Source: a bacterium HR30
Lineage (GTDB): Bacteria > Desulfobacterota > Binatia > HRBIN30
Reading direction: 5' to 3'
Assembly (NCBI GenBank): GCA_002898795.1
Contig: BEIG01000015.1
Coordinates: forward strand, 1-45,243
Length of the DNA: 45,243 bases
Shown: piece after piece, positions 1-2,719 of the stretch
Layout: every line of letters begins with the position of its first letter
Numbering within the stretch: position 1 is the stretch's first letter
Notes under the pieces: model-generated
Database searches by the model: none
The model's input: the letters and a program-made list of their open reading frames with translations, nothing else
What the model was told of the DNA's origin: nothing
Program-made: the position numbers and the translations under genes

Positions 1-1028
1 GCCAACCACAATTGTCCATCTTCGTAGGCCAACTGAGGGGGCGGCACACTTAAGTGAGTTGCGGCAGGCGATGGTGGTTTCCCTGGCTGCTCTCGGTGGT
101 GTGGCATTTTGTGGTCAGCCGCCACGGACCCCGTGTCCTCTTCCCTGGACAACTCTGCACTCACGTCCTGGACGCCGCGTTGTAGAATGCGCCACAAGCC
201 GGCGGAGCTTTCTTCTTGGCTTCCATCGTCGTCATCCTCGCGGGATTTGAACCATTCGTACCGTTCCTCATCGGCTTCGTCCTCGCACTCTCGTTCGTCT
301 TCCTTAAAATGGGCATCGGCAAAAGCATCCTCATCGAGTTCGTCATCCTCCCAGCAACCCTCGTTGTGCTGCCAGTCTTCGTCCCAGTCCTCCTCTTCGT
401 CCGAGTCTTCATCCCAGTCCTCGTCCCAGTCCTGGTCTTCCTCCCCGTCCCAGTCTTCAACCCGCTCCTCATCGTCGTGCTCCTCGGTGTCGAGGCCCTT
501 GTCACCAAGGTCTTCGTCTCGGGCACCATGGTCTTCGTCCTCTAGAAATTCACGCAGAAAAAACGTTTCCTTTTCCTCGGTGAAGTCGTCTTCTTCGTCG
601 TCGGTGGGTCTGCTGCCCGGCGCGCGCTGCTTACGACCGCGGCCAACAGCAGCCCCTCGCCCGAGCCGCCGGCGCTGCCACCCCGCCAAACAATGTGGGC
701 AAAAGAAATGGATTCGGCCTTGACACTCGCTGCACGCAAGAAACCCTAGATCGCTGCACTCGGCGCATTCCCCTAGAGGTTCGGACCGCGAGTGGCAGTA
801 GCGGCACCATGTCTGTCCCCGTCCGCCACATCGGTGACATTCCTCCCCGTACAGGTCGCAGCCAACACCGTTACAGTCGGGGCACTCGATGTAGCGCGTG
901 CCCTTACAGACACGGCAGCGATCCGCGCCGGGTCCGCCGCAGTTCCAACATGGCATCATGCCGGTGCCCTGGCAGTGCAGGCAAACGGCCCAACCTCGGC
1001 CCTCACAGAACACACACTCCCTAGCCAT
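1..1028 (-). CDS. Ten-CxxC zinc-ribbon-like protein with acidic Trp-rich region (3' end missing)
   Basis: Reading the minus strand from ATG at 1028-1026 gives an uninterrupted frame to base 1 (342 codons, no stop), so the gene leaves the window. A GGGGG stretch lies just upstream of the ATG. Residues 5-113 hold ten CxxC pairs, with first cysteines at 5, 16, 27, 38, 49, 64, 75, 88, 99 and 110; most steps are exactly 11 residues. Several pairs are followed by GxG or GG, as in the DnaJ cysteine-rich domain (CxxCxGxG), but there is no J domain. Residues about 143-270 are very rich in Asp, Glu and Trp, with recurring DEDW-type units, and a less biased Pro/His-containing part follows. Ten pairs could bind about five zinc ions if two pairs share one ion, which is inference. 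Function unknown; a chaperone-like, scaffold or nucleic-acid role is possible. The acidic coding DNA makes strong low-complexity shadow frames on the other strand. Confidence 0.85.
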   Translation of the reverse strand, partial: MARECVFCEGRGWAVCLHCQGTGMMPCWNCGGPGADRCRVCKGTRYIECPDCNGVGCDLYGEECHRCGGRGQTWCRYCHSRSEPLGECAECSDLGFLACSECQGRIHFFCPHCLAGWQRRRLGRGAAVGRGRKQRAPGSRPTDDEEDDFTEEKETFFLREFLEDEDHGARDEDLGDKGLDTEEHDDEERVEDWDGEEDQDWDEDWDEDSDEEEDWDEDWQHNEGCWEDDELDEDAFADAHFKEDERECEDEADEERYEWFKSREDDDDGSQEESSAGLWRILQRGVQDVSAELSREEDTGSVAADHKMPHHREQPGKPPSPAATHLSVPPPQLAYEDGQLWL

Positions 1029-1736: not shown

Positions 1737-2015
1737 ATGCGACGAATGGACCACCGCCCGCTTCGACAGCGGCTCAGGCTGGTGATCGTATGCGGAATTC
1801 TTTTGACCTTTGCTTGTGGGACGGTGACTTCGTCACAGCGTGCAGTTTCGCCCCACGTTGTGGAGTCGCCCGGTTTCGTCAGCCTCGACGAGCCGACATC
1901 TCCGGAGACCAAGACTCCCCCCGATCGCGAGCGATGGGAAGGAGCGGCAACCGCCGTGCTCTTCGTGCTCGTCGTTTTGGGCAGCGCGGCCCTTCCGATC
2001 CTACTGCTTCTTTAA
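1737..2015 (+). CDS. Small membrane-anchored protein, unknown function
   Basis: A 92-residue protein. Residues 1-14 are basic and lead into a hydrophobic stretch (about 15-30, ending LTFACGTV) that could be a signal peptide or first membrane segment. The Cys at about 27 sits in a weak lipobox-like context. A Ser/Pro/Glu-rich middle (about 32-66) is followed by a strong hydrophobic segment (about 69-92) that ends the protein. A GGGGCAAG stretch lies about 8 bases upstream of the ATG. The stop codon is 11 bases from that of the convergent MgtC-like gene. I do not recognise the family. The membrane layout supports a real gene, but it is short and an internal Met (codon 4) could be the true start. 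Confidence 0.5.
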   Translation: MRRMDHRPLRQRLRLVIVCGILLTFACGTVTSSQRAVSPHVVESPGFVSLDEPTSPETKTPPDRERWEGAATAVLFVLVVLGSAALPILLLL

Positions 2016-2026
2016 CTCCACCCGGC

Positions 2027-2719
2027 TCACTCGCCCGTCGGCGCGATGTCGAACTCCAGAACTCTCGGCTCCTTTCGCCAGCGCTCCGCCAAGCCTTCGA
2101 AGCTAGCGCGCCGAAAGGAATGAATGACCATAGCGTACTCGAAGGCGCGCCCTTGGTCGATCAAGTGGTAGCTCAAACTCGCTACCTCTGCCTTGTGTTC
2201 GCGCACCATCGCCCGCAACTCATGCTCTTCCGGGACGTTTCCTCGGTCGAATCGCACCGAGCAATGGGCGTAAAGTTGCGTCGGCATGCGGTCCTCCATC
2301 CACCGAAAAACGGCCAAGGTTCCCAGAACCGCAGCGGTTCCAAGGACCGCCGGTAAAAACAGTCCGACCCCGTACAAGACTCCAAGCACGGCGGTGATCC
2401 AAATCGAAGCTGCTGTGGTTAGGCCCCGCACTGTCAGCCTCTCCTTAAAAATCACTCCCGCTCCGAGGAAACCGATGCCCGTCATGATTCCCGCCGCCAT
2501 ACGGGTCGGATCGGTCCGCACGGTCTCGAGCGGAACCCCCCCGATCCATTGCCACTGATGGGTAGTCACCAGCATCAGTAAGGCTGACGCTAAGCAGACC
2601 AGGGCGTGCGTACGAAACCCGGCGGGCCGGCCGTGGAACGTTCGCTCCAATCCGATCAAGCTGCCCGCAAGCCACGCCGAACCTGCGTGAAAGACAATGT
2701 GGGCAATGTCGTGTTCCAT
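2027..2719 (-). CDS. MgtC/SapB family membrane protein
   Basis: A 230-residue protein with the MgtC layout. Four to five hydrophobic segments lie in residues about 8-135, and the family signature GLERTFHGRPAGFRTHALV is at about 23-41. A Gly-rich stretch (GIMTGIGFLGAGVIFKE) follows, then a soluble C-terminal domain of about 85 residues, as in the longer MgtC proteins. MgtC proteins sit in the inner membrane. In pathogens they help growth at low magnesium and inside macrophages, partly by affecting the F1Fo ATPase; in free-living bacteria the role is less clear. Only a weak purine-rich ribosome site precedes the ATG. It is convergent with the small membrane protein gene, and I see nothing that ties it to a magnesium riboswitch. 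Confidence 0.88.
   Translation of the reverse strand: MEHDIAHIVFHAGSAWLAGSLIGLERTFHGRPAGFRTHALVCLASALLMLVTTHQWQWIGGVPLETVRTDPTRMAAGIMTGIGFLGAGVIFKERLTVRGLTTAASIWITAVLGVLYGVGLFLPAVLGTAAVLGTLAVFRWMEDRMPTQLYAHCSVRFDRGNVPEEHELRAMVREHKAEVASLSYHLIDQGRAFEYAMVIHSFRRASFEGLAERWRKEPRVLEFDIAPTGE

Follow-up and report, generated by a model that had tools for sequence, protein, structure and literature searches.

The left end of the stretch of DNA that we analysed (the window, 45,243 nucleotides, which is the entire contig C15 of G000, a draft genome of 3.73 Mb in 211 contigs) encodes a protein in which closely spaced cysteine pairs are followed by a long acidic region, which raises the question of what such a protein folds into and what it could do. 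The first-pass annotation had described ten CxxC pairs, mostly 11 residues apart, with GxG-like followers as in DnaJ repeats and a long acidic Trp-containing region behind them, and closer analysis bears this out. The minus-strand frame 1028->3 stays open for 342 codons as far as the window edge and contains exactly ten CxxC motifs, starting at residues 5, 16, 27, 38, 49, 64, 75, 88, 99 and 110; the successive spacings are 11, 11, 11, 11, 15, 11, 13, 11 and 11, i.e. 11 in seven of nine steps. Five of the ten motifs (1, 2, 3, 5 and 6) show the full CxxCxGxG form on direct reading of the sequence. The 20 motif cysteines are packed into 113 residues, and while residues 1-117 hold 21 cysteines, residues 118-342 hold two. 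The layout is 5|5, the longest spacer (15) being the central one; a second, smaller insertion separates motifs 7 and 8 (spacing 13, and 18 in the related genome G001). A basic stretch (residues 117-142, computed pI 12, charge about +9) joins the array to the tail. In residues 141-280 Asp and Glu make up 52% and Lys and Arg 8%, with eight Trp; the computed pI and charge of residues 142-280 are 4.1 and about -62. The basic stretch and the central position of the longest spacer had gone unmentioned in the annotation. In the G001 relative, Trp is placed between acidic residues with a significant regularity that none of 5000 shuffles reaches; in the window tail 731 of 5000 reach it, and the regularity is not significant. 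The locus comprises the following features:

678..1028, minus strand: ten-motif CxxC array, residues 1-117 (motif count; 20 cysteines invariant in 34 aligned arrays)
840..872, minus strand: central loop between motifs 5 and 6, residues 53-63, predicted hairpin tip (spacing 15 versus 11)
606..680, minus strand: basic linker, residues 117-141 (computed pI and charge)
189..605, minus strand: acidic Trp-containing tail, residues 142-280 (computed pI and charge)
3..188, minus strand: C-terminal part to the contig end, continuing on contig C171 (L004:5001-5268, minus strand; 30-base overlap)
1737..2015, plus strand: lipoprotein-like ORF of 92 aa, transcribed away from the array gene (tblastn matches at the same place in G001 and G002)
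2027..2719, minus strand: MgtC-family gene, conserved neighbour (PF02308, E 3.2e-37)

The gene could be followed leftward beyond the window: the last 30 bases of contig C171 are the first 30 of the window, and the joined frame is open and encodes 431 aa. We infer the join from an overlap of just 30 bases backed by synteny, since the tRNA-Ala(GGC) gene that comes next on C171 also stands beside the array gene in G001 and G002. A promoter scan found nothing and a terminator scan gave no excess; neither Rfam nor tRNA scanning of the window gave a hit, and neither an operon partner of the array gene nor a client or sign of expression was found.

Our search of the genus covered three genomes, G000, G001 and G002. 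G001 carries an intact homologue of 352 aa (L008:8058-9116): none of the 20 motif cysteines is missing, the central spacer is the same, and there is an acidic, Trp-containing tail. Comparison of the homologues' neighbourhoods, as the first-pass annotation had proposed, revealed a gene order common to all three genomes (mgtC, lipoprotein-like ORF on the opposite strand, array gene, tRNA-Ala), in which mgtC and the tRNA flank the array gene, with tRNA-Ala(GGC) downstream of it in 3/3 cases. The mgtC gene, 84% identical in G001 and G002, lies about 1 kb from the array gene with the opposite-strand ORF between them. This 92-aa ORF (window 1737-2015, plus strand) is kept in its position in 3/3 genomes; it has no Pfam match, and 'lipoprotein-like' is our reading of its sequence. 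Around the tRNA-Ala(GGC) (L004 on C171, and L032) the order agrees on the mgtC side and seems to differ on the other, where G000 has a RidA-like gene (PF01042) and G001 and G002 have different ORFs. Since the order seems to differ beyond it on the side away from mgtC, the tRNA may mark a rearrangement border.

The array is far more divergent than its neighbour: 42% identity versus 84% for MgtC, with 51, 50 and 73 differences at codon positions 1, 2 and 3 over 116 codons versus 31, 17 and 118 over 231 codons of mgtC. Still, 29 of 95 non-Cys sites are identical between the window and G001 arrays (shuffle mean 8.7, maximum 19 in 10,000), while the tail is kept in composition without alignable sequence. 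Judged by these comparisons, the array evolves fast, yet is under some constraint. The annotation had held that a frameshift could show the frame not to be conserved; the frame is kept in G001 but broken in one of the three species, G002, where fragments of the array are spread over three frames beyond mgtC, together with an in-frame stop and an acidic stretch. We read this as a broken copy of the gene; an assembly fault is less likely, since the array lying in three frames plus a stop favours a real lesion. Because of the broken frame and the fast divergence, the gene would appear to be dispensable at least in G002. Outside the genus, the array gene had no match in 12 other genomes of the order. 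In a phylum sample, 20 of 395 genomes matched a two-row profile, one of them being the window genome; none of the other loci has the ten-motif layout, the best Cys-rich frames being DnaJ proteins, short arrays, multi-CxxCH proteins and unclear frames. An antisense or chance ORF is ruled out by the conserved sense-frame Cys pattern, and on this comparative evidence the gene is real, conserved and genus-restricted.

Acidic Trp-rich stretches are not peculiar to the array protein, since the genus also conserves a separate 55-aa acidic Trp-rich ORF (G000 contig C77:13312-13475, inside L005:4195-4476, plus strand) just upstream of a D-Tyr-tRNA deacylase gene (PF02580). The ORF shows 91% and 85% identity to its counterparts in the other two genomes of the genus, and four further genomes of the family yielded no match.

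Does the protein belong to a named family? The annotation knew of none with this layout, which stands insofar as the window protein reaches no curated Pfam or NCBIfam cut-off. It has no J-domain match, which a DnaJ (type I Hsp40) would have, among Pfam hits up to E 1, in line with the annotation, and PF00684 (DnaJ_CXXCXGXG), which matches 26 of the 34 aligned arrays at E <= 0.01, is not listed for it up to E 1. The whole protein scores 15.2 bits and the array alone 19.1 against PF25436 (BSD2_CRD), both below the cut-off of 27 bits; that family has four motifs and two zinc sites, and the window array has ten motifs. The Anti-TRAP family PF15777 matches 3 of the 34 arrays and is not listed for the window array at E <= 0.01. 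Nothing useful came from NCBIfam, PHROGs or PADLOC: P0001 and P0002 match 0 PADLOC anti-phage defence families at E <= 0.01, and phrog_28723, of unknown function, matches P0002 weakly (0.054) and one phage array at 2e-7. Searches with back-translated peptides found no close relatives in genome contigs or viral contigs. No plasmid matched the array protein; among uncultured large phages, three records matched, with 32-36% identity. Sequence profiles match the DnaJ structure 1exk (E 2e-6) and BSD2 (E 1e-5). The array protein is not the DnaJ of the window genome, since two separate genes there exceed the PF00684 cut-off; a profile search, with the window sequence included in the profile, found only one array gene in this genome.

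The part of the annotation's statement that does not stand concerns the array as such, which is not unique to the window, since arrays of the same period are widespread. We scanned viral contigs and bacterial and archaeal genomes for four CxxCxG motifs at 11-residue steps and obtained at least 120 matching stretches in the former and at least 117 in the latter; an earlier pattern scan listed 80 loci, of which 60 lacked an open frame covering the match, and several of the remaining 20 turned out to be low-complexity runs of Cys. Record titles among the matches listed include Bacteroidota, Spirochaetes, Planctomycetota, Chloroflexi, Heimdallarchaeota, a haloarchaeon and others, and motif counts of 8 or 10 dominate among these matches. 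By our reading of 22 proteins, the array mostly lies within a larger protein or at its end, and these proteins are often membrane-anchored or secreted. An N-terminal array with an acidic Trp tail was not picked out in any of the 81 genome-derived arrays among the matches listed, of which L264 alone reached 50% Asp/Glu in a 50-residue stretch. What sets the window protein apart is the combination of ten motifs right at the N-terminus and a long acidic tail behind them, seen only in the genus among the genomes searched.

Two groups of proteins stood out during this survey. L034, L073 and L106, from viral contigs, are 517-552 aa long, carry 10-14 CxxC motifs at the C-terminus and share similar N-termini (MxxRYxDFxxES-like) and a middle region; we would guess that they are possibly virion or early-injected proteins. 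L264, L265, L308 and similar loci (records from Nitrospinota, Bacteroidia and Myxococcales) encode large proteins in which an array of 8-11 motifs is preceded by a related N-terminal region (NRWARSIPNH-like in several of them) and the C-terminal parts are hydrophobic; they would seem to form a widespread family that is as yet uncharacterised. We found no description of longer CxxCxG arrays in the openly accessible literature searched, a scope that makes this a weak negative.

The spacers of these arrays are arranged symmetrically. We analysed 222 viral loci, of which 118 have an in-frame array, and 80 of the 117 listed genome loci, of which 79 have one; a shared-word filter, not a tree, reduced the 198 arrays of this set to 151 non-redundant ones. 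Even motif counts outnumber odd ones (109 versus 23 arrays with six or more motifs, among the matches listed). The longest spacer is exactly central in 93 of the 109 even arrays and off-centre in the other 16 among the matches listed (shuffle mean 12.7, maximum 27 in 5000). Among the same matches, mirroring of irregular side spacers is seen in 24 of 81 pairs (null mean 11.2, maximum 21), and in 12 pairs the two spacers are of equal length (null mean 2.8, maximum 9). Under a more stringent redundancy filter, the longest spacer is central in 72 of 86 arrays among the matches listed. The rule also holds in loci that were not used to form the idea: the remaining 37 listed genome loci gave 36 with an array and 30 new arrays, and the longest spacer was central in 18 of 23 of the matches listed (null mean 2.3, maximum 10). 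This symmetry is not forced by the search pattern, because eight motifs with one break contain a run of four wherever the break lies. The window array follows the rule, with its spacer of 15 in the centre. In the DnaJ cysteine-rich domain the motifs pair in nested fashion, 1 with 4 and 2 with 3. A central longest spacer together with mirrored side spacers implies that motif i should face motif n+1-i. We reject stacked independent zinc ribbons as improbable in view of the central and mirrored spacers.

Structure prediction is in agreement with this topology. All 20 cysteines are invariant in our alignment of 34 ten-motif arrays, the window included. The alignments used for prediction had been picked for ten motifs and a central break (33 of 44 such arrays in A2 and 32 of 44 in A3, plus the window row), so the models may be biased in favour of symmetry, even though no topology was supplied to the network. 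AlphaFold2 yielded a weak model of the window array (pLDDT 68.1, pTM 0.38), best around the central turn (residues 51-70, mean pLDDT about 90-92), in which the strand register sums are 120, 120, 122 and 122, the jump of 2 corresponding to the two extra residues between motifs 7 and 8. For a ten-motif phage array the best model reached pLDDT 89.8 and pTM 0.64 (the other four, 29.9-45.0), with a register sum of 118 constant over all five nested strand pairs; a constant register sum is the signature of one antiparallel hairpin. BSD2 (6ekb) aligns with the predicted array model over 61 of 62 residues, spanning model residues 11-107, with rmsd 3.5 and a Z of 7.0, a range that the tool calls common, values below 8 possibly reflecting a common arrangement. 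Much of the chain between the ends of the alignment is left out, so that BSD2 corresponds to separate stretches of the two arms, as expected if it is a shorter hairpin. Foldseek ranks BSD2 first for both models (E 7e-4 for the phage model; E 0.015, rmsd 12.9 for the window model, which has no match at E <= 0.001). We consider a nested hairpin likely for the array, and zinc binding, which motif conservation and knowledge of the family suggest, very likely indeed. A DnaJ/BSD2-type cysteine-rich fold, lengthened from two to five zinc sites, is fairly well supported by the spacers and the models. The annotation's stacked zinc-ribbon rod is accordingly modified: the array is probably a zinc-stabilised rod, but a single nested, zinc-pinned hairpin fits the spacer symmetry and the models better than stacked ribbons.

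What might such a rod do? The N-terminal 117 residues would form an elongated DnaJ/BSD2-type cysteine-rich domain, in which the chain would go out via motifs 1-5, turn at the central loop and come back via motifs 6-10, with the motif pairs 1/10, 2/9, 3/8, 4/7 and 5/6 each clasping one zinc ion to give five zincs in one antiparallel beta-hairpin rod. Like BSD2/ZnJ2 and the DnaJ zinc domain, the rod would most likely hold segments that a partner protein exposes; solubility of the complex, or a preference for a basic client, would come from the basic linker and the acidic tail. We give this scheme as a whole, a J-less elongated zinc hairpin that grips a partner and carries a basic linker and an acidic tail, an even chance of being right. 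Our assignment as a J-less holding chaperone or adaptor of the BSD2/ZnJ2 type, also roughly evenly balanced, is favoured by the precedents of ZnJ2/BSD2, the DnaJ zinc domain and Anti-TRAP; that the acidic tail determines the client or the charge is a more tentative suggestion. ZnJ2, a zinc-binding protein with four CXXCXGXG motifs and no J domain, is reported to prevent aggregation independently of DnaK (PMC5818400); in DnaJ, the four repeats are reported to make up an antiparallel beta-sheet that contains two zincs and to possess holding activity (PMC8262869).

The same features could be read differently. Binding of a specific regulatory protein by the array, as Anti-TRAP binds TRAP, with the acidic Trp tail competing with nucleic acid at a basic surface, would make the protein a charged mimic or anti-regulator. 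Anti-TRAP, with its zinc-bound CXXCXGXG motifs, is a structural neighbour of the models and inhibits an RNA-binding protein (PMC2896485), and the genus conserves the 55-aa acidic Trp-rich ORF beside the tRNA-deacylase gene; yet Anti-TRAP has two motifs and acts as an oligomer, its matches cover only 32-35 columns, the partner is putative, and the tail is kept in composition and not in alignable sequence, all of which leaves this reading rather improbable. Unlikely, too, is a metal reservoir, in which the 20 cysteines would serve as a buffer for zinc or a different soft metal, with divalent cations bound by the acidic tail. The density of cysteines (20 in 113 residues), the tail charge of about -62 and the conserved place beside an MgtC-family gene, which would fit ion stress, are what such a role predicts, whereas the ordered 11-residue period, the conserved Gly and the central symmetry point to a folded scaffold, and with mgtC about 1 kb off and an opposite-strand ORF between, co-transcription is only presumed.

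The state of the gene in G002, in three frames with an in-frame stop, the lack of a match in 12 genomes of the order outside the genus, and the array differences at codon positions 1, 2 and 3 (51, 50 and 73 of 116, against 31, 17 and 118 of 231 in mgtC) might mark a fast-decaying genus-specific orphan with little or no present function. We regard this as quite unlikely, given that the two intact copies keep 20/20 motif cysteines and 29/95 other sites within the same architecture and synteny. Use of the CxxC pairs as a thiol-disulfide oxidoreductase or redox switch has a counterpart in DnaJ, whose activity of this kind is mapped to the zinc-2 site (PMC8262869), but the four-motif, J-less ZnJ2 neither reduced insulin nor induced disulfides (PMC5818400), and we hold such a role to be very unlikely. 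The holding chaperone or adaptor built on a zinc hairpin is the reading that we favour.

The result of widest interest is the mirror rule for long CxxCxG arrays. If right, it would give a structural reading for many unannotated phage, bacterial and archaeal proteins, convert motif number into zinc-site number and rod length, and place the DnaJ zinc region at the lower end of a range of sizes. A bolder and doubtful extension is that long CxxCxG arrays are modular, widespread zinc-pinned hairpin rods whose length is set by symmetric addition of motif pairs, the DnaJ domain being the shortest common case, and that the genus fused a five-zinc rod to an acidic tail as a dedicated assembly chaperone or nucleic-acid-mimicking adaptor. 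The window protein would then be a compact J-less example with a charged tail, suited to biochemical tests.

Set against known systems, the window protein is probably a lengthened member of the DnaJ/BSD2 cysteine-rich structural class, as sequence and models suggest, with a tail not seen in named families. Chloroplast BSD2/ZnJ2 (PF25436) comes closest: it has the 11-residue step within each half, a longer central spacer and no J domain, and BSD2 is the best PDB match both by sequence and by model; it differs in having four motifs instead of ten and no acidic tail. The type I DnaJ/Hsp40 cysteine-rich domain (PF00684) shares the CxxCxGxG motifs and the antiparallel zinc fold (PMC8262869), but has four motifs in a protein that carries a J domain and client-binding domains. 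Anti-TRAP (AT) of Bacillus likewise combines zinc-binding CXXCXGXG motifs with the absence of a J domain (PMC2896485), whereas it has 53 residues and two motifs and forms trimers and dodecamers. The uncharacterised long arrays of viral contigs, bacteria and archaea (for example L054, L201, L307 and L263) resemble the window array in their 8-14 motifs, period of 11 and central loop; unlike these, which lie mostly within or at the end of larger proteins, the window array is N-terminal and bears an acidic tail.
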